From Clostridiaceae bacterium JG1575 (GTDB lineage: Bacteria > Bacillota > Clostridia > Clostridiales > Clostridiaceae), in contig LQGW01000005.1 of the NCBI GenBank assembly GCA_002838815.1, positions 1-41,465 of the forward strand: 41,465 nt of DNA, given 5' to 3'. Below, piece after piece: positions 1,501 to 41,465 of the stretch. Below the pieces are notes generated by a model, which was given only the letters and a program-made list of their open reading frames with translations, did not search any database and was not told where the DNA came from. The position numbers were made by a program, and so were the translations under genes. How positions within the stretch are numbered: the first letter of the stretch is position 1; each line of letters opens with the position of its first letter.

Positions 1501-2472
1501 CTATTTCAAAGGCAAAACTTCAGAAAATCCCTTGGTGGCTTTATAATCCATGGCGTGCTGGAAGTTTTTCAAGGCCGCCACCAGGTCAATCCCCTGAAAA
1601 TTCAAGGCTAAAAAGGACTCTCGCGGAAATAACACGCTGAGAATGGTTCGCTCTTCTTCATGCCCCGTTGCGGGATTCACGGCGTGCACTTCGGCGTTGA
1701 TGCACACGAGGCGCGAGGGCAAAAGGGCAAAAAGGTCCCGCGCTACGCGAAAGGTTGTGGAGAGCACATAATCCCTGGTGAGCTCTTGGGCAAAGGTTTT
1801 GCTCATGGGTTTTTCGGAAAGGGCCCCGGAGGCTAAAACCGAGAGGCGCGTTTTGGGAATGACTTGCTCTGGGTTCACCCGAAAGCGCACGGCCAATAAA
1901 TCTTCGTGGGTGATGCCCACTTCAAATTCGGAGCCCACGTCGGTGAGGTCCGAAAAAGGCTGCATCTTCTCCACCACCTGTAATAGGGCCTCATCTTCTC
2001 CCGCCAAGAGGGCTTCAGCCAGACGCTTTAACTCCTGACTTTCCTTAGTTTCTCCCCGCTGCGCCTCGGCCACTTGCTGCCAGTCAATGGGCTCATCAGC
2101 TTCGTGGTGCACGGTGCGAAGATGTTCCAGATACGCCTGCCATCGCGCAACTTCTTCTTCGCTTGCCCGACGGATCGCTGCCTTTTCGGCTTCCTTCGCG
2201 GCCGCACGTTGGGCTGGGGCCTTGCCGTTGGGTTTGCCCTCCTTTTGAGATGGCCCCCGGCCAAAAAGACCGGCGATGGCGTCAAAGAGGTTGATCTGCT
2301 TATTATAGGAGACCCCGGTGCCGGGAAGGCTCGCCGTACCCCGGGCTCGGCCCCGACTGTTCACCGACATGCGTAGGCCGGGAAGGCCGAAGCTTACGCT
2401 GGGACCGGATTTTGAGAGGTTCACTCGGACCCCTTTGCCCATGGAAATGCTTTTTCGATAATTAAAGCCCAT
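1501..2472 (-). CDS. DUF4236 domain protein
   Basis: A 323-residue protein. Residues 1-57 match the DUF4236 signature closely: GFNYRKS..., NLSKSGPSVSFGLPG, then a Gly/Arg-rich stretch and GTGVSYNK. The family is common in bacteria and has no settled function. Residues about 75-115 are Ala/Lys/Glu-rich and probably helical. The remaining 200 residues are an unassigned alpha/beta domain ending in VLPLK. Its start overlaps the 3' end of the upstream lipoprotein gene by 11 nt, and the DUF4139-like gene follows after 8 nt, so all three are likely made from one mRNA. Confidence 0.75.
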   Translation of the reverse strand: MGFNYRKSISMGKGVRVNLSKSGPSVSFGLPGLRMSVNSRGRARGTASLPGTGVSYNKQINLFDAIAGLFGRGPSQKEGKPNGKAPAQRAAAKEAEKAAIRRASEEEVARWQAYLEHLRTVHHEADEPIDWQQVAEAQRGETKESQELKRLAEALLAGEDEALLQVVEKMQPFSDLTDVGSEFEVGITHEDLLAVRFRVNPEQVIPKTRLSVLASGALSEKPMSKTFAQELTRDYVLSTTFRVARDLFALLPSRLVCINAEVHAVNPATGHEEERTILSVLFPRESFLALNFQGIDLVAALKNFQHAMDYKATKGFSEVLPLK

Positions 2473-3826
2473 TATAGTCCTCCTTCAGGGATCCATTCCC
2501 CAGTTGTTTTGCCTCTTTGGTCCACTGGAGCAAAAAGCGCAAAAGGGCGTTACTCACCGCTTCGACTTCTTCCTCCAGGCGCTCTCTTGGGACGTCCTGT
2601 TCGGGTTGATGTGCTAAGGCGCCGACCCCCTCCAATGAAAGATAGGGTCGACCCGGGGGCGCGGTCAGAACCTTTGGCTCACTCTCGGACATCGTCACGG
2701 TTATTCCATGATCCTCGAGTTCTCGGCAAAGGGCAAGAAGACGCTCCTTGGACACCCCTCGGGCAGAAAGCACCAGTCCCTTGGGATCCCCCACCCCAAA
2801 GACGCTGATCCAAAGCGCCTCTTGCAGTCGGGCGTCCTCCCTCACCTGCGAATAAAGCTCTCTTAAGCCTCGCCCGTCCTGCAGCACCGCGCCGGGCAGG
2901 GCAAAGACCGTATTGAGTTTTTGCTGATCCAGCCTCGGAGAGACACTGGCTAAGGTGGAGAGCACCGCGACGCCCGAGGCGTTTTCCGTGGCCCCGGGCC
3001 CCTTCTTAACGTCCAAATTGGCGCAAAGAATTGCTGTGGGCGCCTTGGGGCGATACATGGTGGGTGTGGCGAGCAGCGCCCCACTGAATCCCTCATAAAG
3101 CATGGGTCGCTTTAAAAGGCGAAGCTTAAGTCCTTTTGGGGTCTCAATCTGTCGCTGAAAAGCTACGGCGTCCTTGGCGGAGATCCCCAAAAGCGGCAAG
3201 GACGTCTTGCCCTTGATCTGTGGGACCTGAGGCGCCGGCTTTTTGTCGGAATACAGCAGCACCCCCGCAGCGCCCGCCGACTCATAAAGGGGCAGGGTCT
3301 GATTCAAATCGAAATAATTGGCTTTGATGAGCACCAGCTTATGTTTAAGCGGGTGCCCCTTGATCTCCCCCGGGGTCCCCTGATTCAAAAAGACCACGGA
3401 CAAAGCCCCCTCGGGCGCATGATCTGCGGAGCGATCCGAGCGCACGGATTCGAAGCTGATCTGACCCGTCTCATCGGATAGGTTCAACGGTTCCTTCAAG
3501 CGGTAGCGCACGGAAAACTCTTTACTATTTACCTGAAAGCCCGACCGTTCCAAAAGGGACCTTAGGGTTTCCAGACTTTCCCGCTCCCCCGTCTGCCCTG
3601 CCAGGCGTACGGTGCTGGGTTGAGCGAGCGTGGCCAAAAGTCCGTCAGCCAAGGCAAGATCTTCCTCTTTTAAAAAGGAGGGGTAATTTAAGGAAGCCAC
3701 GGGCTTCGTGGCACGGGCCAAGGGATCGTGCCCTTTGATCAGACGATACAGTGGGGCACAACCTTGAAGCATGAAGAGGAACAACACAACAAACAAAACA
3801 ATAAGCCGTTGGGGGTGACGCTTCAT
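2462..3826 (-). CDS. lipoprotein with PA-like and degenerate M28 peptidase domains
   Basis: The start at 3826 is chosen because GGAGG sits just upstream and it places a proper signal peptide first; a longer GTG-started frame exists. In the 454-residue product, Lys/Arg-rich residues 1-8 and a hydrophobic stretch lead to the lipobox LQGC (Cys23), so it should be a membrane-anchored lipoprotein. Residues about 110-230 resemble a protease-associated insert. Residues 262-430 follow the M28 zinc-aminopeptidase fold, including GPGATENASGVAVL (276-289). The expected metal ligands are altered: His in the first motif is Asn270, the bridging Asp is Glu281, and the Glu-Glu pair is absent at 311-317 (PGAVLQD). 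It may bind rather than cleave. It is first in the operon with the DUF4236 and DUF4139-like genes. Confidence 0.65.
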   Translation of the reverse strand: MKRHPQRLIVLFVVLFLFMLQGCAPLYRLIKGHDPLARATKPVASLNYPSFLKEEDLALADGLLATLAQPSTVRLAGQTGERESLETLRSLLERSGFQVNSKEFSVRYRLKEPLNLSDETGQISFESVRSDRSADHAPEGALSVVFLNQGTPGEIKGHPLKHKLVLIKANYFDLNQTLPLYESAGAAGVLLYSDKKPAPQVPQIKGKTSLPLLGISAKDAVAFQRQIETPKGLKLRLLKRPMLYEGFSGALLATPTMYRPKAPTAILCANLDVKKGPGATENASGVAVLSTLASVSPRLDQQKLNTVFALPGAVLQDGRGLRELYSQVREDARLQEALWISVFGVGDPKGLVLSARGVSKERLLALCRELEDHGITVTMSESEPKVLTAPPGRPYLSLEGVGALAHQPEQDVPRERLEEEVEAVSNALLRFLLQWTKEAKQLGNGSLKEDYNGL

Positions 3827-3894
3827 GGACAATTCCTCCTGCTGGAGACGAAATAGCGGGGCAGGGATGATTCCCACCCAGGGTCTTTGAAGCT

Positions 3895-9215: not shown

Positions 9216-11507
9216 TTAAAGAACATTCAAGACGTCCGCTAAGGACACATCCAGCATTGACGGATCCTTGACTCCAAGAAGGGCCGAAGCGGCATTGGCT
9301 TGGATGATTTGGGGCACCTGCGGGAAGGACCAGTGATCCTCCCCCAAATGGAAGGCGACGAGGTGGCGCGAGCGCCACAAAGGACCGCAGGCTTCCCAAA
9401 AGGGCGTGCGCCCGGCCTCGGGCATCAAAAGTTGCGGCAGGGCTTCTTTTTTAGCGCCGGAGAACAAATACGGCGCATAATCCGTGGCGACATAAACGAT
9501 GGGCGTCAAGAGCGCAAAAATCCGCAAGAACGTCGGGAATATCTCCTCCAAGTCCTCATCGCGGATGCGACCTTCTAGAGCCATAGCAAAAAGCGTCAGA
9601 TCCGTCTTCATGGCCCGGGAGGATCCGATGAAGGCTTGATGAACCGCTAAAGCTTCTTCAAAAAGCTTGTGGCGCAGCTCGTTGTATTCCTCGTCCACCC
9701 AAAGGGCCTTGGGGCCTAAAAGATGCTGGTGCAGCAGGGCCGAAACATCGCTCTCTTCAGCATACGCTTCACCGTAATGCTCTCGGAAGGCAACCATATG
9801 CTGCTGAGCGGCCGCCAACTCCTCCTTCTTCCCTTGTTCTTCTTCCTTTAGCTGCTCGAGCTCTGAAGTGAGGGAATGGTATTCGCTAAGGGCCATGTTG
9901 AGGTCCCGCTGGCTTTGGGTGACCTCCTCCTCTTTCGCCTTTTGTTCCTCTTCCAAGTGCCCCAGGGCTACGACTTGAGGATCCTTCTTAAATAGGAAGC
10001 GCAGCCAACGTTTGAAGAAGGAGAGCTCTCCTAAAAGCGCCGCATGGCGGTCTTGGAGCTCGGCCACGGCCTCGCTGCGTTTTTTCACCTCGGATTCCTT
10101 ATAATCGCGGGAGGCCCCGGATGCCTCCCATTTCAGCGTCAGAGCCGCCCGTCGAAGCCCTGCCTCCTCCACCTTCTCCAAAAGCTTGGGGTACCCGAAG
10201 GTGGTCTTATAGTCGGCTAAGAGTTTTTCTCTTTTGCGCAAGACATTTTCAAAGGCACGGCGGAACTGATGCCGCGTCGCTTCCCAATCGGCGCCACTTT
10301 GGTGAATCAGCGCATCAAGCCCCGCGCCATCGGCCTTATGGACGGATCTTAGGTAGGAGACCACATCGCCGCTCCCGGCAAAGCGTTGAATGAAATACGG
10401 CGCTCCCTGGATCGTATACCAATCCTTAGGGGCATGGGTTTTGAGCACCTCCTGGGCGGCCTCGCGAAGGTCCTGCAAGAACTTGGGGTCTTTGCCCAAG
10501 ATAAAGCAGCCCGTGTCCAAAATCCGCCCATCGGGCAGATACCAAGAGGTGGAATACTCCTTGTTTCCCGTAAAGGGCACTTCCTGAAACGCATCGTCGG
10601 GCCGTGAGTAGCGTGCCATGGCCGAAGCCCGCTCAATAAGAGCAGCGCTCACCCATTCCAAGGTCAGGCGCACCGCCGCCTCTTGGGTGCGCACTGAAGG
10701 AAAATAGACAGGCCGCGACTCCTTAGCAGACAGGGCCTGATTGAGTAGGACCTGCTCACGTAAGGAAAGCGAGGCATGACCCGGCCAAAGGCTTAACGAA
10801 TTTTGCTCCGGGTGCGTCCAATGGAGAAGATGAGCTAGGGTATAGTCATTTTGATACGGCGTGGCTTGATGCAGCACTTTGGGGAGCGCCTCGGCGCAGC
10901 GATCCCAAAGATCCGTTTCCGCTGGATCCCTTAAAATAGATTCCAAGTCCATCAAATACCCATCCAGCACGTGGTGCTTGTTCTTGTCTCGCTCCTGGAT
11001 CAGCGCCGTGCACTGAGAGAAAAAGGCGGACAAATTGAGTTTATTCACCACATAATTGAATAGTTCGTTAAGCTCTCGAAATTCCAGTTTTCGATCGAAG
11101 GCTCGGAGAAATTCATCAAACTCGTCGTTGGCCCGATTGATCAAATTCAAATCCAGCTGAGCGCGAAGGTTGCCTTCCTTTAAAATCTTCGCCAAGGCAA
11201 AGAGCACCGGCGAAATAAAAAAGCTCTTTGGACTGTAATACCCTCTTTTATCCGTACGCAGGAAACAAAGATAGCACGGCGTGGACGTTTCCTCCGGCAC
11301 CTCGCCCAAGGCAAGCTCCAGCTCCTCAATTTCCGCCTTCCCGATGTATAGGTCGTACCCGGCCACGGACTCTCCGCCAAAAATGCTCTCATAAGGCACA
11401 TAGGTTCGTTCGGGACTCACCCAATGATCCCCGCGCTTTTGCGCGGGAAACTCCGGTCGATAAAGCACCAGATGATAATAGTATTCCAAGAGTTTTCTTG
11501 CTTGCAT
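9216..11507 (-). CDS. degenerate, truncated SF1 helicase-like protein
   Basis: The start at 11507 is chosen for its GGGAGAGGAAAGCG ribosome site; a longer frame reaches 11588. The 763-residue protein follows the order of large DNA2/NAM7-type (SF1) helicases by remembered family pattern. LSLWPGHASLSLREQVLLNQAL (238-259) aligns to the block before the P-loop, IERASAMARYSRPDDAF (291-307) to the block after it, and LLMPEAGR...ACGPLWRSRHLVAFH (693-720) to the Walker B region. The P-loop itself is lost (260-272 reads SAKESRPVYFPSV) and the Walker B acid is Pro697. A coiled coil of about 120 residues (465-580) lies between. The protein stops about 45 residues after Walker B, so the second RecA-like half is missing. 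Probably not an ATPase; role unknown. Confidence 0.6.
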   Translation of the reverse strand: MQARKLLEYYYHLVLYRPEFPAQKRGDHWVSPERTYVPYESIFGGESVAGYDLYIGKAEIEELELALGEVPEETSTPCYLCFLRTDKRGYYSPKSFFISPVLFALAKILKEGNLRAQLDLNLINRANDEFDEFLRAFDRKLEFRELNELFNYVVNKLNLSAFFSQCTALIQERDKNKHHVLDGYLMDLESILRDPAETDLWDRCAEALPKVLHQATPYQNDYTLAHLLHWTHPEQNSLSLWPGHASLSLREQVLLNQALSAKESRPVYFPSVRTQEAAVRLTLEWVSAALIERASAMARYSRPDDAFQEVPFTGNKEYSTSWYLPDGRILDTGCFILGKDPKFLQDLREAAQEVLKTHAPKDWYTIQGAPYFIQRFAGSGDVVSYLRSVHKADGAGLDALIHQSGADWEATRHQFRRAFENVLRKREKLLADYKTTFGYPKLLEKVEEAGLRRAALTLKWEASGASRDYKESEVKKRSEAVAELQDRHAALLGELSFFKRWLRFLFKKDPQVVALGHLEEEQKAKEEEVTQSQRDLNMALSEYHSLTSELEQLKEEEQGKKEELAAAQQHMVAFREHYGEAYAEESDVSALLHQHLLGPKALWVDEEYNELRHKLFEEALAVHQAFIGSSRAMKTDLTLFAMALEGRIRDEDLEEIFPTFLRIFALLTPIVYVATDYAPYLFSGAKKEALPQLLMPEAGRTPFWEACGPLWRSRHLVAFHLGEDHWSFPQVPQIIQANAASALLGVKDPSMLDVSLADVLNVL

Positions 11508-11558
11508 CGCTTTCCTCTCCCTTATTCCGCGTGGATTGCATCGTTCCATTCTTTTTAG

Positions 11559-11588
11559 ATTATACCCCCAAACTCGCCCATCGGTCAC
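11559..11588 (-). promoter_or_regulatory. promoter candidate for the helicase-like gene
   Basis: Minus-strand TATAAT (complement of 11559-11564) has a weak GTGACC 18 bp upstream and lies about 50 nt before the chosen start. The rest of 11508-11771, between the divergent genes, shows nothing else. Confidence 0.45.
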
Positions 11589-18624: not shown

Positions 18625-19959
18625 TTAGGCCTGGGCCAAAGAAGCCTCCTTAAAAAATGCCTCATAGAGGCCTTGCGCCTCGGCTTTTTGCTGTTCAAGG
18701 AACACCGCCAATTCTTCCTCAATGGGGGCGTGAGGGTAATGGGCGGCGATTTCGAGCACCGCCTCCTGATTTCGATTGGCGTCGGTGATGCGCCCCAAAT
18801 GCTCCTGCCATGCCTTCTCCTGGGCGTACATTCCGTCCATCCTCGGGGTCTTCTCCCGTTTGAAAACCTCCAGGACGTAGCGGATCTTCTTCGAACGGAT
18901 GCGCAGGGCATGGATGGCGGCTCGGTCATTGGCATCGATTCGTTGCACTTGCTCTTGGATCTTTTGATGCCACGTCTTCAAGGTCCCGCAGACCAGATCG
19001 TCCAGGCTGTAGCAGGGGGCCTTTTTCAGCGAGAGGGACGAGCGGAGCTCTCGCTGGATTTCTTCTAGTTGCTGCGCGCGCTTGGGCGTTTCGAAGAACT
19101 GAAAAAGCCGCTGGGCCTCCTGTGCCCGCTCCGCACGTAAAATGGCTTCAAATGCTTCTCCCGTCAAGTGGTGTGCCTCAAAAAGGGCGGACGCGTCCCG
19201 CCACTGCTCCAATAGGACATCCAATTCCCTCAAATAAGCACATTCTTGGGCAAAGCCTCGAAGCTTCCCTTGGAGCGAGCGATAGGTCTTCTTTTTTAGT
19301 AGGGGCTTCAAGAGGGAGATCACGCTTCGATACTGGCGAATTTTCACCCGCAGCTGGTGCACCCCTTCGCTGGCCGAAGGCGCCGCTAAAAAGTCGTCCC
19401 GTCGACTCATCATCGCATCAAACGCTCCTTCAAGGACGCGCGAGAGATCTTTTTCAAAGAGGGTCTTCCAATCGCGGATGCCCCCAGCGGCTAGAAGACG
19501 CGAAGCGTCCGCCAACGACAAGGCAAACGTCACCCGTCCCTTCAACACGTCCCCTTCAGTGAGCTCAATTTGAGCAACGCCGCCCTTGGAAAGGGTCACG
19601 CACTGCTCAGTCAGCGCGTAAATCCATTCGTCCAAATAGGGCGCATGGCCGACGATCACCAACGTGGTGTCGAGCGTCCCTCGCAGGAGCCGCTTGAGGG
19701 ACGAAAGGGTTCCCGTCGCGACAAAGCGCATGACTTCGGGCGCAGGAAGCCCCGCCTCTTCCAGAAGTTTCGCCGTTTGCCGAGCGCGCAGCTTTGGGGA
19801 TGTAATAAGGCGGACCGAATGCTGTTTCAAATAAAACGCCAGGATGGGCGCGAACCGCTGAACTGCTTTTCTGCCTTCGAGCGTTAACGGTCGCTCCTCG
19901 TCGGCAAGAGCCAAATTGCGCGCCAGAGCTTCTCCATGGCGGATCAAGAGGATGTTCAC
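18625..19959 (-). CDS. SixA phosphohistidine phosphatase - CHAD domain fusion
   Basis: A 444-residue fusion. Residues 1-155 form a histidine-phosphatase domain of the SixA type, with catalytic Arg7-His8-Gly9, a second arginine in SPKLRARQT and the second His105 in VGHAPYL. Residues about 165-440 are an all-helical CHAD domain with its conserved His201 (VHQLRVKIRQYRSV) and His350 (IHALRIRSKKIRY) and many surface Arg/Lys, the pattern that in this family binds polyphosphate. The joint protein may dephosphorylate protein histidines or another phosphate compound at polyphosphate. A TATAAT (complement of 19992-19997) lies upstream. Confidence 0.85.
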   Translation of the reverse strand: MNILLIRHGEALARNLALADEERPLTLEGRKAVQRFAPILAFYLKQHSVRLITSPKLRARQTAKLLEEAGLPAPEVMRFVATGTLSSLKRLLRGTLDTTLVIVGHAPYLDEWIYALTEQCVTLSKGGVAQIELTEGDVLKGRVTFALSLADASRLLAAGGIRDWKTLFEKDLSRVLEGAFDAMMSRRDDFLAAPSASEGVHQLRVKIRQYRSVISLLKPLLKKKTYRSLQGKLRGFAQECAYLRELDVLLEQWRDASALFEAHHLTGEAFEAILRAERAQEAQRLFQFFETPKRAQQLEEIQRELRSSLSLKKAPCYSLDDLVCGTLKTWHQKIQEQVQRIDANDRAAIHALRIRSKKIRYVLEVFKREKTPRMDGMYAQEKAWQEHLGRITDANRNQEAVLEIAAHYPHAPIEEELAVFLEQQKAEAQGLYEAFFKEASLAQA

Positions 19960-20137
19960 GGACAGGGTCCCTCCCTTCTAAGGTTTCCCTAATTATACGA
20001 TATTTGTCCATCAGATCGGATTAAGTTTTGTTCAATCTTTTGAAACGTGCTCAAATTATGCTTCTTTTAAAGAACTGATAAAGATATTGTGAATTTTTTG
20101 TTTCGTTTCGTCTGTCCTATTCACATGGCGGGAACAT

Positions 20138-20146
20138 TGATATAAT
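20138..20146 (+). promoter_or_regulatory. extended -10 promoter of the repeat-peptide gene
   Basis: TGA followed by TATAAT (20141-20146) forms a perfect extended -10. Only a weak -35 (TTCACA or TATTCA, 20119-20125 region) precedes it. The start of transcription is near 20153. The 19960-20137 stretch shows no gene. Confidence 0.7.
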
Positions 20147-20156
20147 AAAAACCAAC

Positions 20157-20239
20157 AGGTCCGAATGGTTCGGATATCTCACCTGATGGTCCATCCTCAA
20201 TGACGGGTCTTTGACTGCCAACAAAGCTCTGGGTCATTG
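20157..20239 (+). promoter_or_regulatory. structured 5' leader of the repeat-peptide gene
   Basis: Three helices can be drawn. TCCGAA-TGG-TTCGGA spans 20160-20174. GATG-gtc-CATC spans 20185-20195. The long arm is CAATGAC (20198-20204) with GTCATTG (20233-20239), continued inward by CTTTG (20209-20213) with CAAAG (20222-20226) around the loop ACTGCCAA. No T-run follows, so it is not a terminator. The arm ends about 12 nt before the AGGGG ribosome site. I cannot match it to a named riboswitch class. Confidence 0.5.
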
Positions 20240-20265
20240 AAAAAAATCATTAAGGGGTTGAATGC

Positions 20266-20736
20266 ATGAAAAAAAGAATGATCGCATCGCTACTCGCTGT
20301 TTCTTCCGTACTCAGTTTGACCATCGCCCTCTCTGGAACCGCCGGTTCCTCCATCCTAGTGGGAGCAAAAAAAGATATTCCCGACATCTATTCCGAGGTG
20401 GATCCCAACGCCAAGAAAGATATTCCTGACATCTACTCCATTGCCGCGAAGAAGGATATTCCCGACATCTATGGCATCGTCAATCCCAACGCCAAGAAAG
20501 ATATTCCTGATATCTACTCCATTGCTGCGAAGAAGGATATTCCCGACATCTACGGCATCGTGAACCCGAATGCCAAAAAAGATATTCCCGACATCTATTC
20601 CGTAGCCGCTAAAAAGGATATCCCCGACATCTATTCCGAGGTCGATCCCAACGCGAAGAAGGACATCCCGGACATCTATGGCATCGTCGATCCCAACGCC
20701 AAGAAAGACATCCCAGACATCTACGCTATTTGTTAA
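20266..20736 (+). CDS. secreted tandem-repeat protein, nine AKKDIPDIY copies
   Basis: 156 residues. A basic start (MKKRM) and hydrophobic core (to about residue 24) form a signal peptide, with cleavage likely around 26-33. The whole mature part is nine identical AKKDIPDIY blocks at 34-42, 49-57, 61-69, 76-84, 88-96, 103-111, 115-123, 130-138 and 145-153. The joints are SEVDPN, SIA, GIVNPN, SIA, GIVNPN, SVA, SEVDPN and GIVDPN, and the end is AIC. Periods are thus 15 or 12 residues, mostly alternating. The only cysteine is the last residue. Codons differ between copies (for example all four proline codons are used) but the amino acids do not. There is no sortase motif or lipobox. The paired lysines before each block could be processing sites, which would release many copies of one short peptide; an extracellular ligand-binding repeat is the alternative. 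I do not recognise the family. It is monocistronic, with its own promoter and terminator. Confidence 0.85.
   Translation: MKKRMIASLLAVSSVLSLTIALSGTAGSSILVGAKKDIPDIYSEVDPNAKKDIPDIYSIAAKKDIPDIYGIVNPNAKKDIPDIYSIAAKKDIPDIYGIVNPNAKKDIPDIYSVAAKKDIPDIYSEVDPNAKKDIPDIYGIVDPNAKKDIPDIYAIC
20368..20724 (+). repeat. coding tandem repeats of 36/45 bp
   Basis: Nine 27-bp blocks coding AKKDIPDIY are separated by 9- or 18-bp linkers. Differences among blocks fall in third codon positions, so the array is old or selected at protein level rather than freshly amplified. Confidence 0.9.
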
Positions 20737-20765
20737 ATCAACTCCAAATTGCGAAGAACAACCGG

Positions 20766-20806
20766 CGGACCTGCACCCAAAGGCGTGCAGGTCCGTTTCT
20801 TTTTTT
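20766..20806 (+). terminator. strong terminator of the repeat-peptide gene
   Basis: CGGACCTGCAC (20766-20776) pairs perfectly with GTGCAGGTCCG (20785-20795), followed by TTTCTTTTTTT. It isolates the repeat-peptide gene from the lipoprotein gene behind it. Confidence 0.92.
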
Positions 20807-20858
20807 GTAAAATGAAACCAACAACCGCAGTTTTTGCCGAACGATACAGGAGGCTTAT

Positions 20859-21725
20859 ATGAAGCGACCTATTTTAATTTTGCTTTTTTGCTCTTTGACC
20901 CTCACGGGGTGCCATCTGAAAGTGGCTTCCACCTCCTCGACTTCCGTCTCAAAGACCCTTACCACCTCCTCCAGTAAGCCTTCCCATGCGTCTACCCCTG
21001 CGCCCACCCAGACGTCCAAGCCCTCCCCCAATCCTTCCCTGCCCGCTCCATCAAAAGAGGATTCCTCCCTCAAGGTCCATGAAATTTTGACGAAAATGGC
21101 GAGCGCTAAGGCCGCACTTCAAAGCTATGAATTCAAAAGTCAAACCTCCATTCAAATTGCGGATCGACTCATTGAATCCAAAAGCATCGGGGTGGAGTTT
21201 CCCCACCGAGGCGACGGCATGCGAAAAAGCATCGGAGAAGACGGCGAATTGCTGACCTATCTTAAGGACCACGTGATGTACATGCAAGATCCGGCTTCCA
21301 AGGAGTGGCTCAAAGCGAAGCTTCCGCCATCTGCTGTGCCCAAAAGCGAAGCCATTGACCCGTCCACGGATCAGTATTTAAAAGCCCGTAAAACGCCCAC
21401 GGGCTGGGCGTTAGAATCCCTGCGCCCTCTGAACCTTAAGGAGTTTTATCGGATCACAGGTCAAGAGTCCCTCGAGGCAGAAAATATCGAGCACTACGCC
21501 GCTGCGGGCGTCTCTACAGAGACTACGATCCAGTATATGCTCAATGAGGACTTCCTTCCCGTGCGCCAAGAAAGCCGCCAAGTCACCGTCAGCAACAGCG
21601 GCACCACCATCACCATCATCACTGAAGAATTTTTTAACCACAACCAGGCCCCAGAGGTGTCGGTCCCTTCCAACGTATTAAATAACGCCAAGCAAACCAA
21701 GGCGCCTCCCGCTCCGGGCCGTTAA
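20859..21725 (+). CDS. DUF6612-like lipoprotein
   Basis: 288 residues. The signal peptide ends in lipobox LTGC (Cys18). A long Ser/Thr/Pro-rich linker (about 22-68) spans the wall. Residues 70-270 form a beta-rich domain starting VHEILTKMASAKAALQSYEFKSQTSIQI and containing DHVMYMQDPASKEWLKAKL, like the LolA/LppX-type fold of the DUF6612 lipoproteins of Firmicutes. Function is unknown, possibly holding a lipid or peptide ligand outside the membrane. AGGAGG lies 5 nt before the ATG. It follows the repeat-peptide gene on the same strand, but a terminator stands between them. Confidence 0.7.
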   Translation: MKRPILILLFCSLTLTGCHLKVASTSSTSVSKTLTTSSSKPSHASTPAPTQTSKPSPNPSLPAPSKEDSSLKVHEILTKMASAKAALQSYEFKSQTSIQIADRLIESKSIGVEFPHRGDGMRKSIGEDGELLTYLKDHVMYMQDPASKEWLKAKLPPSAVPKSEAIDPSTDQYLKARKTPTGWALESLRPLNLKEFYRITGQESLEAENIEHYAAAGVSTETTIQYMLNEDFLPVRQESRQVTVSNSGTTITIITEEFFNHNQAPEVSVPSNVLNNAKQTKAPPAPGR

Positions 21726-21776
21726 AGACTCCCAAGCCCGGACCCCGACGCACCCCCTTTTCTCAGACAACGAATC

Positions 21777-21813
21777 AAAGCCCTCCGTCCTAAGATCGGA
21801 CGAAGGGCTTTTT
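21777..21813. terminator. bidirectional terminator
   Basis: AAAGCCCTCCGTCC (21777-21790) pairs with GGACGAAGGGCTTT (about 21798-21811) with one mismatch. T-runs on both outer sides serve the lipoprotein gene and hutH, which converge here. Confidence 0.85.
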
Positions 21814-21841
21814 GGGGGGAAGAGACGGAATGCTCGCTGTA

Positions 21842-23371
21842 TTAGGCGAGGGTGATGTTGAGCTCATCGAGAACCTGCAACAGCTCCTCGGATTTTAAAA
21901 GATGGATCATTTGATCGATGTCCGTGTACATGACTCGATCCTCCGTAAGCTTCGGAACCAAGGCGCGGGCCTTGTCGTAGATCTTTTGGGTCCCGACGCC
22001 CATCCCCTGATCGCCGCGAAGATCCATGGCCTGGCAGGCGGTGAGAAGCTCCATGGCCAGTACTTTGCGCACGTTGCCCAAAATCTCCGCAGCCTGACGG
22101 GCGGCAATGGTGCCCATGGATACGTGATCCTCCTGGTTGGCTGAGGACGGAATGGAATCCACTGAGGCTGGATGCGCCAGAACCTTATTTTCGGATACCA
22201 CAGCGGCTGCAGCATACTGAACGATCATAAAGCCCGAATGCACGCCGCCCTGCTCCGTCAAGAACGCCGGCAAGCCATTGGAGAGCGCCGGGTTGACCAG
22301 GCGCTCCAAGCGCCGCTCGGAAATGTTCGCAAGCTCCGACAAGCCGATCTTCAAGAAATCAAAGACCAAGGCCATGGGCTGACCGTGGAAGTTTCCTCCA
22401 GAGATGACGCGATCCTCATCGACAAAAATAATCGGGTTGTCGGTGACGGCGTTGATTTCCCGTTCCACCCGCGAGCTCACGTATTGGAAGCAGTCCATGG
22501 AGGCGCCATGGATCTGTGGCAGGCAGCGCAGCGAATAAGCATCCTGCACTCTCTTTTCGCCCTGCTTGGTGGTGTTTTTGGATCCCTTGACGAGCTCTAA
22601 GAAGTTCTTAGCGCACGCCACCTGTCCGTCCTGATTGCGGATCTCGTGAGTGCCGTGGTAGTAGGCATCGGTAATGCCGGTGAGGGCTTCAAAGCTGAGC
22701 ATAGCGATGCCGTTGGCCATGCGCAGAAGGTTCATGGCATCGTACACTGTGTGACAGCCGACGCTGGTCATAACCTGGGTTCCGTTATTCAAGGCCAACC
22801 CTTCCTTGGAGGACAACGTGATGATGGGAACGCCGGCTTTTTTCATGGCTTCTCCCCCATCCATCAGCTCTCCTTGATACCAAGCTTTGCCTTCGCCAAT
22901 CAACGTCAGGGCTACATGGGACAAGGGAGCCAAATCTCCTGAGGCTCCCAGGGAGCCTTGTTGCGGCACAAAGGGAACGATGTTGGCGTTGAGCATGCCC
23001 AAAAGGCTTTTGAGGGTGGCGGCGCGAATGCCGGAGAACCCCTTGGACAAGGCATTGATGCGCAGCAAAATGACGCCTCGAACGATGTCCTCGGCAAAAG
23101 GCTCGCCCACGCCGCAACAATGGCTGGTGATGAGATTGCGCTGCAAGGCCTCTGTTTCATCTTCGCTGATGGTGACATCAGAGAATTTTCCAAAGCCGGT
23201 GGTGAGTCCGTAAACGACGCGTTTTTCTCGCACATAGCGGTCCACAACTTCTCGAGCCCGGTCCACGGCGTTCCAAGCCTCTTGGGTTAAATCCACTTCC
23301 CGATGACCGCGCGTGACGCTGATGAAATCGGAAAGGGTCAATGAACTTCCATCCAGTAATAACTTTTCCAT
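21842..23371 (-). CDS. hutH: histidine ammonia-lyase
   Basis: 509 residues, the standard length. It removes ammonia from L-histidine to give urocanate, the first step of histidine breakdown. The MIO prosthetic group forms from Ala143-Ser144-Gly145 in GSLGASGDLAPL, and Tyr54 in YGLTTGFG is the catalytic-base region. Further family blocks are VTDNPIIF and SSANQEDHVSMG. It is the last gene of the minus-strand hut region, 91 nt after the transporter gene. An intercistronic hairpin (CCCGCTC/GAGCGGG, 23403-23439) without a T-run may stabilise or process the mRNA. GAAGG precedes the ATG. Confidence 0.95.
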   Translation of the reverse strand: MEKLLLDGSSLTLSDFISVTRGHREVDLTQEAWNAVDRAREVVDRYVREKRVVYGLTTGFGKFSDVTISEDETEALQRNLITSHCCGVGEPFAEDIVRGVILLRINALSKGFSGIRAATLKSLLGMLNANIVPFVPQQGSLGASGDLAPLSHVALTLIGEGKAWYQGELMDGGEAMKKAGVPIITLSSKEGLALNNGTQVMTSVGCHTVYDAMNLLRMANGIAMLSFEALTGITDAYYHGTHEIRNQDGQVACAKNFLELVKGSKNTTKQGEKRVQDAYSLRCLPQIHGASMDCFQYVSSRVEREINAVTDNPIIFVDEDRVISGGNFHGQPMALVFDFLKIGLSELANISERRLERLVNPALSNGLPAFLTEQGGVHSGFMIVQYAAAAVVSENKVLAHPASVDSIPSSANQEDHVSMGTIAARQAAEILGNVRKVLAMELLTACQAMDLRGDQGMGVGTQKIYDKARALVPKLTEDRVMYTDIDQMIHLLKSEELLQVLDELNITLA

Positions 23372-27511: not shown

Positions 27512-30169
27512 TCAACTTGTGCTCAAGGCGGCGTTTAATTCCTCGATCAGCGCCTCCTCATGCTTGCGCCGATCGGCCTTGTGGTAGATCTGCGCGTTGA
27601 CCAAATGAGCCCGAGCGCTTTTCACATCCCCTTCCTTGAGCATCAGAAGCCCCAAAATAGCTTCCGTGGCCGGGCGCTTCCAATGCGTCCCCAAAATCGC
27701 ATACTCCTCGATGGCTCGCTCCAAGGCTGAAATGGCGTCCTCTGGAGTTCCAAAACGCCAAAGAAAGCGCCCATAATCTGCATACAGGATGTCCAGGCAC
27801 TTATGCACCTTTCCTTCCACCAAAGCGATGGACTCTTCATAAGCAGCACGCGCCTTTTCATACTGTCCCAATCCTTCCAGTGCGCGCCCTTTGTAATTTT
27901 TAATGCCCGCCAAGGATAAAAAGCCCAAGGACCGGGAGGGCGCATCCTCCAGGAGTCGGACCGCCCGGGCCAGCACCGCTAAGGATTCCTTATGGCGCCC
28001 CAAGGTTTCTTGAAAAAGCGCCTCCAAACGAAGCACTTCGGCTCGCAAAAAGACGTCCGCCCCCCAGCTGGCCTTCTCCAACACTTCTCGGGCAAACGTG
28101 GTATAACGCCCCATGAGCTCGGGATCCTCCTTTTGGATGCCGTAATGAACGTATTCCACAGCCCCTTGAAAAAGGCGCAGGGAATCGCCGTGATGAGAGG
28201 CCTCCTGCATCATTCGGGCGATGTGCTCGATGCCTTCCTCTCGGTTGCCGCCAGCAATGAGGCTGCGCCCCCTTAAGTACTCCAAGGTCAAATACAGGGA
28301 ACGCACCTCCTGATCCTCAGCAGAGGCGTTCAGCGTCAGCACCTCCCGACCGATGGCTTCCAGGCGCTGCGCCACGAGAATCTGATCTTGATGGAACTCC
28401 TTGGGGACATCCTCCAGGGAGACCTTGGCCGGAAAGAGGGGATCGTAAAAATCCAACGCAGCCTCCAGCTCGCGCAAAAAAGCAGCGAGGGCCAGTCTTT
28501 TTTTGCCTGCAAGATTCCAATGATACGCTTCATAGCGCGCCATGGAGCGCGCGGAAAGCGGAAGCTTCATCGCCGAACGCGCCGCAAGCTCGTGCAACGA
28601 TCGCCGATAAAACCCCGGAAGGGTCTCATAGATGCGTTGGCGAAGCACCTCATAGCGAGCAAAAAGCAACTCCCCTCTCTCCTCGAGAAGTCCGCGACGG
28701 TACAGCGTCAAAAGATCCGCTAAGATTCCTTCTTGATCCGGTAGAAGATCCCTGGCCATGGCGTCGGTGAATCCCTCATCAAAGACGGAGGTTGCCTCCA
28801 AAAGCTGCAGCTGCTTCGGCGTCAACGAACGGAAAAGGCGAAAAAGCAGCTCGCGTTCTTGGCCTTTTTTTTGAAGACTCTCCTGCAACAGCAAAAGATT
28901 GCCCCCCGTTTTTTCATACATGGACTGAGCTTCCTCTTCACCCAGCCTACGCCCAGGCAGGCTATGGTGAACGAAGGAGGAGACCTCTTCCAAAGACAAA
29001 AGAGGAACATCAATTATTCGCAGGCTGGGGACCAAGGACCCCAAGGAGCCGCTTAAAAAAGGATCCAAGGCATCAGGGGGCGCCGTAAGAATGAAAAACC
29101 GCCGGGGCTCCTTTGACCCAAACTCTGCCAAAAGGCGCCTACGCGCTGACACATGGAGGAATTGGGCGTTCTCAATCACCAAGATTTCCAAGGGATTGCC
29201 TCCCCGAAGCTCTGGTTCCCACTCCTTGTCCCAGGACGAAATGAGCGCAGGATCCTCCAGATGCTCTGGTTCCAGCCTCAGGTGCAAGAAGCGATCGCAG
29301 GAGCGCTGAGCAAACGATCGGGCCACCTCTGCGGCTCCGGAGCCCTCCTCCCCCAAGAGCAGCACGCTTTGATAGTCCGCCCCTTGGGCAAAGGGCGAAA
29401 AGGCTTCTTGCAGCGCCACCATGGGCCCACTGCGCTCAAAGGGACTGGCTGGACCCTCTGGCCCCAGCTGCTTGCGGCTTAAAATAAAACGGGCCAACTG
29501 TTCCGTGGCGCTCTCAGGGGCAACCGCCAAATCCTCCTTCAGGCGCTTTTTCATCTCTTCGTAAACGGCAAGCGCTTCGTTGTGCTGACGCTGCTCAAAA
29601 AGATATTGCATCAAACGGCGAAGGGAGTCTTCGTTGTAGGGTTCCAGCATTAAGAGCTTGCGACAAAGCAGCAAAATCCTCTCGCGATCCCCCTGCGCCA
29701 AGGCCTGCTCCAGCCGGGTGTTGCAGTAATGAACGGTGATCATATGATAGGCTTCGCGAAGGGTCGCGAGCCATAATTCAAAGCCCTCGTTGCCGCGCAG
29801 CTCCATGGAGTCCAAAAAGACTGAAGAGGCCTGCTCCATGGAGCGATCCCCCTGATCGCGTTCAATGAGCAAATCCACATCGCGCCAAAGAACGAGACGA
29901 CTGGACAACGCCACCCGCTCCCGAGTGGAGGCGCTGAATAAATCCACGCCCAAAAGAGCCCGAAGCTCGTAGAGGCTATTGCGTAGGCTCGCCTTAGCGT
30001 GCAGCGCATCTTTCCCCGGCCAAAAAATTGACGATACCTCGCCCCGATCCACTTCTTCTTCATGCAGCAGATAAAACAGCAGCGCGCGAAGCTTGGCCTT
30101 AGCGATGCGTAGTTCTTTTCCCGCCACAATGAGACGGGCGTCTCCCATAAAATACACCTGAACCTGCAC
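27512..30169 (-). CDS. SARP/BTAD-type transcriptional regulator with ATPase-like and TPR regions
   Basis: 885 residues from a GTG start with GGAGGG 7 nt upstream. Residues 1-95 form an OmpR-like winged helix (LRALLFYLLHEEEVDRGEVSSIFWPG...ASLRNSLYELRALL). Residues about 98-232 are a bacterial transcriptional activator domain. Residues 245-470 resemble a STAND-type ATPase, but the P-loop is degenerate (GEEGSGAAE 273-281, no lysine) and the Walker B acid region is VIENAQ. Residues about 560-880 are TPR-like helices. Such proteins activate transcription from direct repeats. Its gene lies just upstream of hutU on the same strand and a fitting repeat site stands at the hutU promoter, so it is probably the hut activator; the inducer (histidine or urocanate) is a guess. 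Confidence 0.75.
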   Translation of the reverse strand: MQVQVYFMGDARLIVAGKELRIAKAKLRALLFYLLHEEEVDRGEVSSIFWPGKDALHAKASLRNSLYELRALLGVDLFSASTRERVALSSRLVLWRDVDLLIERDQGDRSMEQASSVFLDSMELRGNEGFELWLATLREAYHMITVHYCNTRLEQALAQGDRERILLLCRKLLMLEPYNEDSLRRLMQYLFEQRQHNEALAVYEEMKKRLKEDLAVAPESATEQLARFILSRKQLGPEGPASPFERSGPMVALQEAFSPFAQGADYQSVLLLGEEGSGAAEVARSFAQRSCDRFLHLRLEPEHLEDPALISSWDKEWEPELRGGNPLEILVIENAQFLHVSARRRLLAEFGSKEPRRFFILTAPPDALDPFLSGSLGSLVPSLRIIDVPLLSLEEVSSFVHHSLPGRRLGEEEAQSMYEKTGGNLLLLQESLQKKGQERELLFRLFRSLTPKQLQLLEATSVFDEGFTDAMARDLLPDQEGILADLLTLYRRGLLEERGELLFARYEVLRQRIYETLPGFYRRSLHELAARSAMKLPLSARSMARYEAYHWNLAGKKRLALAAFLRELEAALDFYDPLFPAKVSLEDVPKEFHQDQILVAQRLEAIGREVLTLNASAEDQEVRSLYLTLEYLRGRSLIAGGNREEGIEHIARMMQEASHHGDSLRLFQGAVEYVHYGIQKEDPELMGRYTTFAREVLEKASWGADVFLRAEVLRLEALFQETLGRHKESLAVLARAVRLLEDAPSRSLGFLSLAGIKNYKGRALEGLGQYEKARAAYEESIALVEGKVHKCLDILYADYGRFLWRFGTPEDAISALERAIEEYAILGTHWKRPATEAILGLLMLKEGDVKSARAHLVNAQIYHKADRRKHEEALIEELNAALSTS

Positions 30170-30286: not shown

Positions 30287-30389
30287 GAGGGGGATCGGCA
30301 AGCGTCCTTGAAATTTAGCTCATGGGCCCAAAAGGAGCAAGCCTCCCGTTGCCTGTTCCTTCTGGTTTTTGCATCGAATCGGAGGTTTT

Positions 30390-31496
30390 ATGAATTCTAA
30401 ACGCGTAGCGGCCATGAAAGCGGCCATGAAAAAACACCACGCCACCAGCCTTGTGTTGTCCGACCCTTCCAGTATTTTTTACCTCACCGGTCATTGGTTC
30501 TCGCCCGGGGAACGCTTTTTAGCGCTCTTAATTCCTTTAAACAAGGAGCCTCTGCTGTTTTTAAATGAACTCTTCCCCTGTCCGAAATCCCCCGGCGTTA
30601 CGGTCAAGAGCTTCCCCGATACCGTCAACGGCGTGGCGCTTTTGGCGGAAGAAATCGATGGGCCTTGCATTGCCGTGGATAAGGAGTGGCCGGCAAAATT
30701 CCTCTTGGATCTCATGGACCGTAAAAAGGAAGCGCAATTCATCCTCGCCACCCCCATCGCCGATGCGGTGCGACGCATCAAGGACGCCAAGGAGCAGGAC
30801 CAGATGCGGGTGGCTTCCCACCTCAACGACCAGGCCATGTGCGCTCTTTGGGGCCACATCGATGGAACCCAGAGCGAGGAGGAGGTCACCTCCTTCTTGC
30901 ATCAAACCTATAAAAAGTTGGGCACAGAGGGTCCCTCCTTCACGGCTATCGTCGCCTACGGCGCCAACGGATCGGACCCGCACCACGAAACCGATGAATC
31001 CCACGTAACAAGCGGCGACAGCATCATATTGGACATCGGCTGCAAAAAGGACAGCTACTGCAGCGACATGACGCGCACCGTCTTTTATCGGGAAGTCTCC
31101 CCAGAGGCGCGCAAGGTCTACGAGATTGTTCAAGAGGCCAATCGCCAAGGGATCCTCGCCGCGCGAGTGGGCAACCGCTTCTCCGATGTGGATCGAGCCG
31201 CCCGAGAGGTCATTGAGCGGGCCGGCTATGGCCCGTATTTCACCCATCGCACCGGCCATGGCATTGGCATCGACGTGCATGAGCCAGGGGATGTGTCTCA
31301 GGTGAACGATCAAATCATTGAAGAAGGCATGATCTTCTCCGTGGAACCCGGCATCTATCTGCCCGGCAAGTTCGGCGTTCGCATCGAGGATTTGGTCCTC
31401 ATCACAAAAGACGGAAACGAAGTGTTGAACCAGGTTCCTAAAGAGCTGACGATTCTATGCGCAGACCCAGACCCCAAAGAGGAAGGACACTCCTAG
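30390..31496 (+). CDS. M24-family aminopeptidase (Xaa-Pro type)
   Basis: The start at 30390 has GGAGG 5 nt upstream. The 368-residue protein has a creatinase-like N-terminal domain (about 1-130) and a pita-bread metallopeptidase domain. The dinuclear metal ligands are all visible: Asp in ILDIGCKKDSYCSDMTR (two Asp), His in HRTGHGIGID, Glu in FSVEPGIYLPG and Glu in RIEDLVLIT. It should cleave N-terminal residues before proline in cytosolic peptides, in line with an amino-acid-using lifestyle. It is monocistronic, with a strong terminator behind. Confidence 0.9.
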   Translation: MNSKRVAAMKAAMKKHHATSLVLSDPSSIFYLTGHWFSPGERFLALLIPLNKEPLLFLNELFPCPKSPGVTVKSFPDTVNGVALLAEEIDGPCIAVDKEWPAKFLLDLMDRKKEAQFILATPIADAVRRIKDAKEQDQMRVASHLNDQAMCALWGHIDGTQSEEEVTSFLHQTYKKLGTEGPSFTAIVAYGANGSDPHHETDESHVTSGDSIILDIGCKKDSYCSDMTRTVFYREVSPEARKVYEIVQEANRQGILAARVGNRFSDVDRAAREVIERAGYGPYFTHRTGHGIGIDVHEPGDVSQVNDQIIEEGMIFSVEPGIYLPGKFGVRIEDLVLITKDGNEVLNQVPKELTILCADPDPKEEGHS

Positions 31497-37315: not shown

Positions 37316-37873
37316 TTACTGTCCAAAGGACAAAACCTTCTTTTTCCCCATTGCTTCGATCAAAAACCAAGGAAGCTCTTTTCCCCTCTTCCACCGATAG
37401 AATCTTTCCTTGCAGGCAAGAATCTTCATCCCTGGATAGATGATCATCCGCAGGGACATTGTGCCCGATTCATAAAAATTGACTTCGTAGGCTTCATCAT
37501 AGGCAATCTTATAGGTCATTTCGGCGAAATCTTTTGCAGGCAGCTTCTTCGCCTCCAAGCCCTTTAATCCAGAAACAAACTGTTCAAGATCCACGGTATT
37601 TTTCAGGGTGGCAATGGTTCGATTGCCGTTCTTCATTGAAACCTCTTGGATTTTTTTACCTTCTAATACGGAAGCAAAGGAGGTGAATTCTGACGGACGA
37701 AATGCCCCTTTCCGGTTTTGCAACATCAAAGTGCCCGCAGCCCCTAAGAAAAACACAAGGGTCAGTGCCATTAGCAAAATACGCGTTACGGTAGATTCTG
37801 AATCACTTTTTTGTTTTTCTATTTCTCTAGCTTTATTCTGTTTCATTGATTCTTTTACCAGATTGCTTTCCAT
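37316..37873 (-). CDS. membrane-anchored protein of unknown function
   Basis: 185 residues. A charged N-terminus (1-28, rich in Lys, Glu and Gln) is followed by one membrane helix (about 31-50). The extracellular part of 135 residues has alternating beta strands and no known motif (EFTSFASVLEGKKIQEVSMKNGN early, FYRWKRGKELPWFL near the end). I recognise no family. It lies upstream of pstS on the same strand but is separated by its own terminator, so it is not part of the pst operon. The adjacent 37874-38068 stretch before the IS remnant holds no gene that I can support. Confidence 0.6.
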   Translation of the reverse strand: MESNLVKESMKQNKAREIEKQKSDSESTVTRILLMALTLVFFLGAAGTLMLQNRKGAFRPSEFTSFASVLEGKKIQEVSMKNGNRTIATLKNTVDLEQFVSGLKGLEAKKLPAKDFAEMTYKIAYDEAYEVNFYESGTMSLRMIIYPGMKILACKERFYRWKRGKELPWFLIEAMGKKKVLSFGQ

Positions 37874-39668: not shown

Positions 39669-41465
39669 TTATTTTCTTTTGCGTTGCAGCAATAGTCCGC
39701 CTGCAATGAGCATGACCCCAAGCAGCGGCAGTGCACTGGGCACCGATCCGGTCCAAGGAAGTTCTTCCTTGGTATTGGTGATGGTAAAGCCCTTAATCCC
39801 TTTGCGATATCCTTTCACCAGATCCTCGTCCACTGAATAAGTAATTTCTTTTCCATTGGCATCAAAGATCGGAAGGTTCTTAAACACATGGTGTTCTTCC
39901 CCATTCTTCAAAACAATTTTTTGAACGGATACGCCATTGGCTAATAAGTGAATGGTGATCGCCGGCTTTTTCTTGTCTGCTTTGACCCAGACCTTCTTCA
40001 CGGTAATATCCCGAGTTTTAGCTGGCTCAATGGTGTTGGTGATGGTGGTTCCTTCAATAGTCTTTTGATATCCATCCACCGATAGTTCATCTACGGTGTA
40101 GACGATCTTTTGGCCATTTTCATGGTAAATCGGCAAAGAATCAAATCGGAAGGATGTGGTGCCGTTGGTCAGCACCTTTCGTTGAACCTCAATTCCATCT
40201 GCTTTAAGCAAAATGGTGATGTCAGGTTTTAACATTGGTCCGCCAACCCAAACTTTCTTTCCGGCAACTACGGTCGATCCCACAAGGAATCTGTTGGTTA
40301 CTGTTAATCCCTTTTCTGTTTTCTCGAAGTTGGCTGGAGCAAAGTCTCTACCCTTTTCGTCAACTTCCTGAACGCTAAAGGTGTAAGCAGTTCCATTGAT
40401 GTCAATTTCTTCGAGATTGTTCCAGGTCACTTTCGTTGTACCAGATTCCAGTTTTTGGATCGGAGCACCTGGCACCGGTATGGGTTGGCCATTGGGCAAA
40501 GCCCGTAACAGTTGGAACCAAATCGTCGGCTTCACTTTCGGTCCATTCACCCAAGTTTTTTCAGCGGTGACAGTTCCATGAGCTGGGATGGTATATTGGT
40601 TCGAGAATTTCAGCTCCTTGGAGGATGTAGCCTGTATCGAAAGCTGTCCGTCCTGTTTGTCTACAATGGAAACCTTAATTTCAATTGTAGACGCATCATA
40701 GGTCATTCCTTTCTCGGTTCCCTTCTCCTCAATGACACGATAGGTATAGGTTTTTCCTGCATCTTCTTCGGAGTATTCAATGGCTTGGAAGAGGATGCTT
40801 CCATCTTTGACGTTAAACGTTTCTTGAAGTTTTTGTCCTTCCTGATCCATCAAAATGAAGCGGAATTCCTGGTCCTTCAAGAGTCTGCCCACGAGTTCTT
40901 TTTTCAGTTTCAAGATCCATTTGCCTGAAGCCTTATAGGTGTTCTTAAACGTCACGTCGCTCGGAGCTGTAACCCCAGTGATGATCTGACCTACTACGTT
41001 GTCCGTGACGACAACCTTATAGAGGATGCTCTTCGCATCATAGGTCACACCACCCAAGGTGCCCTTAACTTCGCGCACTACATAGTAGTAAGTTCCTTCT
41101 TCGCCATCCTTGTAATTGAGGGTGAAGCTGAACTTCCCGTTCTTGTTGGTCGTGGTTTGCAGTGCCTGCGCACCTTCTTCCACTTTTCCATCTTGATCCG
41201 AACGATAGAGTCCAAAGGTGAATTCTCCATCCTTAAGGTCTCTTCCCGCGAGGTTTTTCAAGCCCTCAAGGACTGCAGAAGCATCCGTCGCCTTGTAGCT
41301 ATTCTTAAACGTCACGTCGCTCGGAGCTGTAACCCCAGTGATGATCTGACCTACTCCGTTGTCCGTAACGACAACCTTATAAAGGATGCTGCTGGCATCA
41401 TAGGTCACACCACCCAAGGTGCCCTTAACTTCGCGCACTACATAGTAGTAAGTTCCTTCTTCGCC
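39669..41465 (-). CDS. sortase-anchored FctA/CnaB repeat surface protein, 5' part outside window
   Basis: Open to the right edge, so only the C-terminal 598 residues are seen and the true start lies beyond. From the edge inward there are FctA/Spy0128-type pilin domains (part of one, a full one at about 41284-40930, and a more divergent one at about 40925-40590). They carry the typical LKDGEFTFGLY, YYYVVREVKGTLGGVTYDAKSILYKVVVTDN and VTFKNTYK blocks. Three CnaB-like domains follow (about 40585-39775), each with a KxWV...KPxIxxxLxxG start and a TNT/TNR-type end. The protein ends with LPWTG (39747-39761), a hydrophobic helix and RKRK. Such domains normally carry isopeptide bonds. It is a cell-wall adhesin or pilus-like stalk. 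Confidence 0.9.
   Translation of the reverse strand, partial: GEEGTYYYVVREVKGTLGGVTYDASSILYKVVVTDNGVGQIITGVTAPSDVTFKNSYKATDASAVLEGLKNLAGRDLKDGEFTFGLYRSDQDGKVEEGAQALQTTTNKNGKFSFTLNYKDGEEGTYYYVVREVKGTLGGVTYDAKSILYKVVVTDNVVGQIITGVTAPSDVTFKNTYKASGKWILKLKKELVGRLLKDQEFRFILMDQEGQKLQETFNVKDGSILFQAIEYSEEDAGKTYTYRVIEEKGTEKGMTYDASTIEIKVSIVDKQDGQLSIQATSSKELKFSNQYTIPAHGTVTAEKTWVNGPKVKPTIWFQLLRALPNGQPIPVPGAPIQKLESGTTKVTWNNLEEIDINGTAYTFSVQEVDEKGRDFAPANFEKTEKGLTVTNRFLVGSTVVAGKKVWVGGPMLKPDITILLKADGIEVQRKVLTNGTTSFRFDSLPIYHENGQKIVYTVDELSVDGYQKTIEGTTITNTIEPAKTRDITVKKVWVKADKKKPAITIHLLANGVSVQKIVLKNGEEHHVFKNLPIFDANGKEITYSVDEDLVKGYRKGIKGFTITNTKEELPWTGSVPSALPLLGVMLIAGGLLLQRKRK
40942..41465 (-). repeat. 360-bp period direct repeats in the surface-protein gene
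   Basis: Bases 40942-41105 recur at 41302-41465 with only 6 mismatches in 164 bp and an exact 360-bp period (120 residues). The first copy is cut by the window edge, so more copies may follow. This indicates recent duplication of the FctA domain. Confidence 0.88.

Follow-up and report, generated by a model that had tools for sequence, protein, structure and literature searches.

What function could keep nine exact copies of one nonapeptide, AKKDIPDIY, in a single short protein with a signal-peptide-like start? The gene that raises this question lies in a 41,465-nucleotide stretch from Clostridiaceae bacterium JG1575 (the window, by which we mean the whole stretch analyzed; its 2.4-Mb genome is called G000 below). 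We consider it likely that 20266-20736 encodes the precursor of a secreted linear pheromone of the RRNPP quorum-sensing type (PlcR/PapR-like), amplified ninefold and unlinked from the gene of its receptor. The evidence comes from the repeat copies themselves, from a one-copy orthologue in a second genome of the genus, and from the genes that adjoin a PlcR-like regulator in two other genera. The features of the locus are collected in Table 1.

Table 1. Features of the precursor locus, in window positions
Feature	Position	Strand	Basis
Precursor gene, 156 aa	20266..20736	+	Translation, synonymous-only copy variation, 51-aa positional orthologue in G002
Signal-peptide-like region, residues 1-26 (MKKR..SGTA)	20266..20343	+	Cleavage site inferred
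Array, nine exact AKKDIPDIY copies with 9- or 18-nt spacers	20365..20724	+	Sequence
Probable -10 element TATAAT	20141..20146	+	Local alignment with the orthologue's upstream region
Probable ribosome-binding site AAGGGG	20252..20257	+	Read from sequence
Intrinsic terminator, 13-pair stem, T tail	20764..20806	+	Between precursor and lipoprotein genes
Lipoprotein, 288 aa, DUF6612	20859..21725	+	Pfam; LppX/LprG/LolA-like predicted fold

Layout of the gene and selection on the repeat unit

Translation confirms the nine exact copies, the 12- and 15-residue periods, the signal-peptide-like start and the one terminal Cys described in the original prediction. Residues 1-26 comprise a basic start and then a hydrophobic core (hydropathy 2.15 over 15 residues), and a short linker leads from the hydrophobic stretch to the array. 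The copies, of 27 nt each, start at 20365, 20410, 20446, 20491, 20527, 20572, 20608, 20653 and 20698 (residues 34, 49, 61, 76, 88, 103, 115, 130 and 145), with copy-to-copy spacings of 15, 12, 15, 12, 15, 12, 15 and 15 residues. The protein had been described as nothing but nine nonapeptides, which holds for the copies but overlooks variable spacers of three or six residues (SEVDPN, SIA, GIVNPN, SVA, GIVDPN), and the Lys pair that had been placed before each block is actually inside the invariant block. The C-terminus reads AIC, the last residue being the sole Cys.

The probable -10 element sits in a 14-nt block, CATTG(A/T)TATAATAA, common to the regions upstream of the precursor gene and of its orthologue in G002, a second genome of the genus; a sigma-70 consensus scan of 19960-21900 returned no promoter-like sites. 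The terminator hairpin has a fold z of -5.86, and a comparable terminator-like hairpin lies 3' of the G002 orthologue. No other open reading frame of 80 aa or more overlaps the gene, and Rfam has no match at gathering threshold in 19900-22000. A Pfam match of the repeat protein to SH3_TNRC18 is above the cut-off, with no stretch that passes alone, and was taken as a chance or repeat match, as were the matches to NCBIfam and PHROG.

Among the nine copies, third codon positions vary at 8 of 9 sites and first and second positions at 0 of 18. The copies use the full set of four codons for Ala and likewise for Pro while the peptide stays constant, as had been noted originally, and the comparison of substitution rates between copies that had been proposed as a check gives a pairwise pS of 0.83 and a pN of 0. 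The spacers have a pN of 0.11 (9-nt spacers, n=3) and 0.25 (18-nt spacers, n=5). At least 12 substitution events separate the copies, all of them synonymous. If each event has a probability of 0.19 to 0.31 of being so, a range set by the transition bias assumed, P lies between ~2e-9 and 9e-7; the test is approximate, since the copies arose from one another by duplication. The nonapeptide is under purifying selection, and the pattern exceeds chance. Since the copies can be told apart in the DNA, the array is not a simple echo of assembly; the exact copy number is less certain than the array itself and would merit long reads.

A one-copy orthologue, and the neighbours of both genes

Among 98 relatives searched, four genomes had matches: the window's own, G002, which is assembled as one contig, and two whose hits (L005 and L006) are Met-rich low-complexity proteins and were rejected as accidental. 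The G002 gene is a positional orthologue of 51 aa (full protein MLKRRIIALLLALSAAFAITLQSGVTANAEESGSGYTINAKKDIPDIFSIN) that carries one copy, AKKDIPDIFSIN, in which the eight residues AKKDIPDI are identical, against a fast-changing lipoprotein and linker. The nine-copy and the one-copy protein each end three residues past the aromatic residue. Gene order is conserved on both sides, with G002 identities of 43% for the CHAD/phosphatase protein, ~29% for the lipoprotein, 82% for histidine ammonia-lyase (HAL) and 73% for the antiporter. The conserved block also includes an 885-aa BTAD-TPR regulator (AfsR/SARP-like; 27512-30169) that stands beside histidine-degradation genes and is 40% identical, as compared with 87% for urocanase. 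In G002 a transposase gene (L022:8268-9671), which we take to be of an ISL3-like family, directly precedes the one-copy peptide gene and separates it from the CHAD gene. KKDIPDI[YF] is present in 2 of 206 genomes of the family, G000 and G002; in a third genome of the genus, G001 (87% complete), we found no KKDIPDI[YF] and no HAL either.

Scans for KKDIPDI[YF] gave 28 stretches in genome_contigs and 5 in viral_contigs, and we rejected all 33 as relatives: 19 lie in open frames of at least 264 aa, none is multi-copy and none is a short signal-peptide-like ORF. At the protein level, genome_contigs (with 19 pattern stretches) and viral_contigs (with 4), as well as plasmids and phages, yielded no confirmed relative, with records close to the window's own genome possibly outside the scope of these searches. 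DIP[DE]-type motifs in the HAL neighbourhoods of other genera were confined to the window's own locus, and this is a weak test because the flank cuts the gene in G002, so that a known positive was missed.

The one-copy form bears directly on a different account of the array, in which the uncut chain would show nine ligand motifs to a surface partner such as the adjacent lipoprotein or a cell-wall component. Exact copies on flexible spacers suit avidity, and the lipoprotein is conserved in position in G000 and G002, with a predicted fold of the ligand-carrier type (LprG Z 11.1 in a fold comparison). Yet a 51-aa orthologue with one copy means that multivalency is not required, and about 22 residues are left of it if it is cut at a canonical ANA site, which weakens the original suggestion of a multivalent extracellular ligand. 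The lipoprotein itself is without a match in G038, a genome of another genus, in a search that excluded a further one, G236, while a DIPx[IV] gene adjoins a cytoplasmic-type regulator in both of these genera (see below). Nor do the lipoprotein paralogues in G002 and G001 have a signal-peptide-like DIPx[IV] ORF in their surroundings of 16 kb and 7.6 kb. We therefore regard a multivalent binder as improbable. The lipoprotein was also considered as a receptor and then set aside; its position is conserved, yet it is not clearly a component of the system. Lipoproteins with a Ser/Thr/Pro-rich linker form a set of paralogues in the genus (window 20859-21725; L023:7916-8869; L024:140-1111).

The original prediction had also found no maturation enzyme nearby. 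Among the 27 window proteins scanned with Pfam, the sole peptidase is an M24 enzyme (30369-31496), which is not of a secreted-protease family, and to this extent the statement stands; elsewhere, however, G000 has 18 subtilisin-family (Peptidase_S8) matches, as compared with 8 in G002 and 0 in G001. All 18 are in open frames of 1359-2134 aa (contigs C3, C11, C34, C37, C52 and C62), a strikingly proteolytic gene set. These counts track the peptide, which has nine copies in G000, one in G002 and none in G001, and would suit a secreted product that inhibits the organism's own large subtilisin-type proteases or serves them as a decoy, or else an antimicrobial peptide against competitors, with the copies raising the dose. 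The trend, though, spans three genomes, of which G001 is incomplete; no peptide-modification or immunity family is recognised among the 27 window proteins scanned, whose transporters are MatE, MFS and a binding-protein-dependent ABC set, and in other genera the motif accompanies a regulator. An inhibitor or antimicrobial role is in our judgement very improbable.

Two further observations concern the window at large. A 589-aa protein (39669-41438) has Cna_B and FctA (isopeptide) domains and is pilin- or adhesin-like, and the ORFs at 263-1492, 2462-3877, 9216-11588 and 37316-37873 have no match in Pfam (E <= 0.001) or NCBIfam (E <= 0.01).

A PlcR-like regulator and the DIPx[IV] genes beside it

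G000, G001 and G002 share one orthologous HTH regulator of ~304-317 aa, 51-53% identical, which provides the sole matches to Pfam RNPP_C at E <= 1 in these genomes. The scores of 18.7, 17 and 16.7 bits are below the cut-off of 26.5, and the same search is weakly positive in 5 of 14 control genomes (Synechococcus and Thermotoga among them), so these matches are non-specific and serve as a lead only. An AlphaFold2 model of the G000 regulator (contig C15), made from three sequences, has a mean pLDDT of 72.0 and a poor HTH part. Foldseek places PlcR first for this model, and 11 of 13 chains at E <= 0.001 are RRNPP receptors (PlcR, ComR, Rgg); a second structure comparison gives PlcR a Z of 22.0 (rmsd 2.6 over 212 aligned residues) and a phage Rap 18.1, against 16.6 for the first non-RRNPP chain. 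The TPR assignment rests on a predicted model, and a shared fold does not prove peptide binding; neither the G002 nor the G001 regulator has a TPR match in Pfam at E <= 0.1.

A profile of the three orthologous regulators (A1) finds relatives at E <= 1e-12 in 5 of 118 genomes, the three of the genus plus G038 and G236, which represent two other genera of the family and whose regulators are 32% and 28% identical to the G000 protein, respectively. An HTH is matched in the three genus regulators, and the G038 and G236 relatives have N-terminal transcription-regulator matches. The lengths of the regulators, 304-321 aa, fall within the 250-500 aa of an HTH plus TPR-fold receptor. The regulator was not found in plasmids, phages or viral contigs.

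Within the genus, precursor and regulator genes are not adjacent. They are ~1.14 Mb apart in G002 (peptide near 1,541,871; regulator at 400,334-401,287), and in G000 they are on different contigs, the peptide gene in the middle of C5 and the regulator gene at the edge of C15. In the flanking DNA examined, which amounts to 12 kb in G002, to one side of the gene in G000 and to a contig of 4.4 kb in G001, none of the three genus regulators has a DIPx[IV] precursor nearby.

Outside the genus, a short DIPx[IV] ORF lies beside the regulator at 2 of 2 loci, one of them tandem. In G038 the divergent neighbour (L152:3575-3889, minus strand) is signal-peptide-like and has AGKNDDIPRINGAELI-type repeats with DIPRIN; three copies are visible, and a gap of 50 N interrupts the array. 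The divergent gene in G236 starts at L153:5355 (plus strand), lies ~450 nt from the regulator and encodes a signal-peptide-like protein of 49 aa that reads MAKKFIAKMLVAVLLFSTVLSVRAYAGENDIPRVFQRSS... and carries DIPRVF. As a control, DIPx[IV] occurs in 0 of 256 signal-peptide-like short ORFs in the 711 kb of other loci examined; the signal-peptide-like calls for all four relatives and for the control ORFs follow a home-made rule (basic N-terminus plus hydrophobic core). The peptide core is partly shared (DIPDIY/F, DIPRIN, DIPRVF), with the aromatic residue absent from DIPRIN. The blocks read KNDDIPRIN in G038 and ENDIPRVF in G236, neither with a Lys pair, and a dibasic site is therefore not a conserved feature. 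That regulator-DIPx[IV] adjacency outside the genus amounts to two loci only counts against the pheromone reading. Together with the one-copy orthologue at the same locus, these precursors beside a PlcR-fold regulator in two genera support the original proposal of a multi-copy pheromone precursor.

If the peptide is a pheromone, it could still act on a different receptor, whether another HTH-TPR protein, the BTAD-TPR regulator or a membrane sensor. Further HTH-TPR proteins of G000 are encoded on C51 and C35, the best PDB sequence match of the C51 protein is PlcR, over the HTH (E 3.3e-6), and the BTAD-TPR regulator is 7 kb from the precursor gene in the block conserved in G002. On the other hand, neither the C51 protein (428 aa) nor the C35 one has a relative at E <= 1e-5 in G002, where the peptide is kept, or in G001, and they are for this reason unlikely to be a shared receptor; the only PDB sequence match of the BTAD-TPR protein at E <= 0.01 is AfsR, and it is the C15 type of regulator that adjoins DIPx[IV] genes elsewhere. 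A receptor other than the C15 type seems to us distinctly improbable.

In G002 and G001 the PlcR-like regulator is preceded by a conserved perfect inverted repeat, TATGGGAGGTAAATCCATA (TATGG-N9-CCATA; L059:7459-7477, L060:105-123), which may serve as an operator or belong to a tiny leader ORF (MGGKSII). We looked for a regulator-binding box that the peptide genes might have in common upstream, and draw no conclusion from this repeat: allowing up to two mismatches, it matches 17 times in the window, where the mean is 10.7 and 8 of 100 shuffles reach 17, so that enrichment is not clear.

Proposed working and relation to known signalling systems

For the AKKDIPDIY precursor, the steps from export and cleavage points through maturation and import to binding and regulatory effect are ones that we infer. 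The 156-aa protein would be exported through Sec, and extracellular proteases would cut at the spacers, giving near-identical peptides of ~7-12 residues centred on KDIPDIY, with KDIPDIY-type and AKKDIPDIYSIA-type peptides as candidate pheromone forms. It is a speculation that the subtilisin-family proteases mature the signal. An oligopeptide permease would then re-import the cut peptides, and binding proteins of the permease type (SBP_bac_5) have 4 matches in G000, 5 in G002 and 3 in G001. In the cytoplasm, the HTH-TPR-fold regulator encoded on C15, the probable receptor, would bind the peptides and alter transcription, and nine copies would yield more signal per translation event. We do not list the system as a proven RRNPP member: in the genus its precursor and regulator genes are apart, the RNPP_C scores stay under the Pfam cut-off, and the regulator is a putative binder of the peptide.

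The nearest analogy is PapR-PlcR of the Bacillus cereus group, in which a secreted precursor is cut by proteases, an oligopeptide permease takes up the product, and a cytoplasmic HTH-TPR regulator binds it. Both systems have a secreted and presumably cut precursor, the one-copy orthologue follows the same simple plan, and the model of the G000 regulator is nearest to PlcR. The peptides are alike in the order D-hydrophobic-P-x-x-aromatic, PapR7 being ADLPFEF in the available text of PMC6568020 as compared with KDIPDI[YF] here; the PFEF core given there is absent, with PDIY, PDIF, PRIN and PRVF in its place. The window system also differs in its nine copies, in the three residues past the aromatic one, in the distance between the genes in the genus and in an RNPP_C score below cut-off. 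A second comparison is with Qsp-Qsr of Clostridium acetobutylicum, likewise of the RRNPP type, with small precursors of 39-50 aa (PMC7376267). According to the part of that paper available, its active QspB heptapeptide, AEPTWGW, is internal and has a Pro and then an aromatic end, while the motif is different, no repeat units are mentioned and the precursor and regulator genes are in one cluster (PMC7376267). As with the QspB peptide, the pheromone of the window system may be internal and not C-terminal.

The original prediction knew of no described family with this motif. The motif was indeed not found in print: a literature search for KKDIPDIY found nothing, and searches with shorter strings were uninformative, the matches among those listed being words such as mandipropamid or unrelated fungicide work. 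Precursors of the yeast alpha-factor type also have tandem identical pheromone units with spacers, and are exported and matured by eukaryotic routes; the plan is alike, and there is no relationship. Multi-copy secreted propeptides as such are, on the other hand, described in RRNPP systems (PMC9765709, PMC11343458). The accessible portions of these papers give up to six identical units for RRNPPA propeptides (Phr, NprX, AimP and PapR variants; PMC9765709) and up to eight copies for RRNPP propeptides (PMC11343458), and repeated Phr units appear in the available text of an earlier one (PMC5199041). Duplicated pheromones of two phage Rap systems are reported to be produced and active. A literature search on multi-copy bacterial precursors gave no relevant new paper among the matches listed. 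The window precursor resembles the multi-copy RRNPPA propeptides in having several identical units in one secreted propeptide, and differs in its nine copies and in its length. Unlinked genes have a counterpart in PrgX, whose pheromone genes are also usually apart from the receptor as far as the available text goes (PMC9765709).

A stronger version of the preferred pheromone reading would be that the genus belongs to an undescribed RRNPP branch with a DIPx[IV] code, in which precursor and receptor genes were split, the unit was brought to nine copies in alternating 12- and 15-residue forms, and the organism's unusually large set of giant subtilisins does the maturation. This we hold to be doubtful, if conceivable. 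Were maturation by giant subtilisins true, the signal would carry information on extracellular proteolysis in addition to cell number.

The locus offers a concrete, testable signal-receptor pair with a peptide code not found in print. Its nine copies, which selection keeps exact, exceed by one the highest number reported for bacterial pheromone precursors, eight in the available text of PMC11343458. With its default limits as given in the part of PMC10075063 available (propeptides of 10-100 aa, near adjacency), RRNPP_detector would miss an unlinked precursor of 156 aa such as this one. The locus also illustrates a way to pair a precursor with its receptor when their genes are unlinked, namely by turning to relatives in which both still adjoin.
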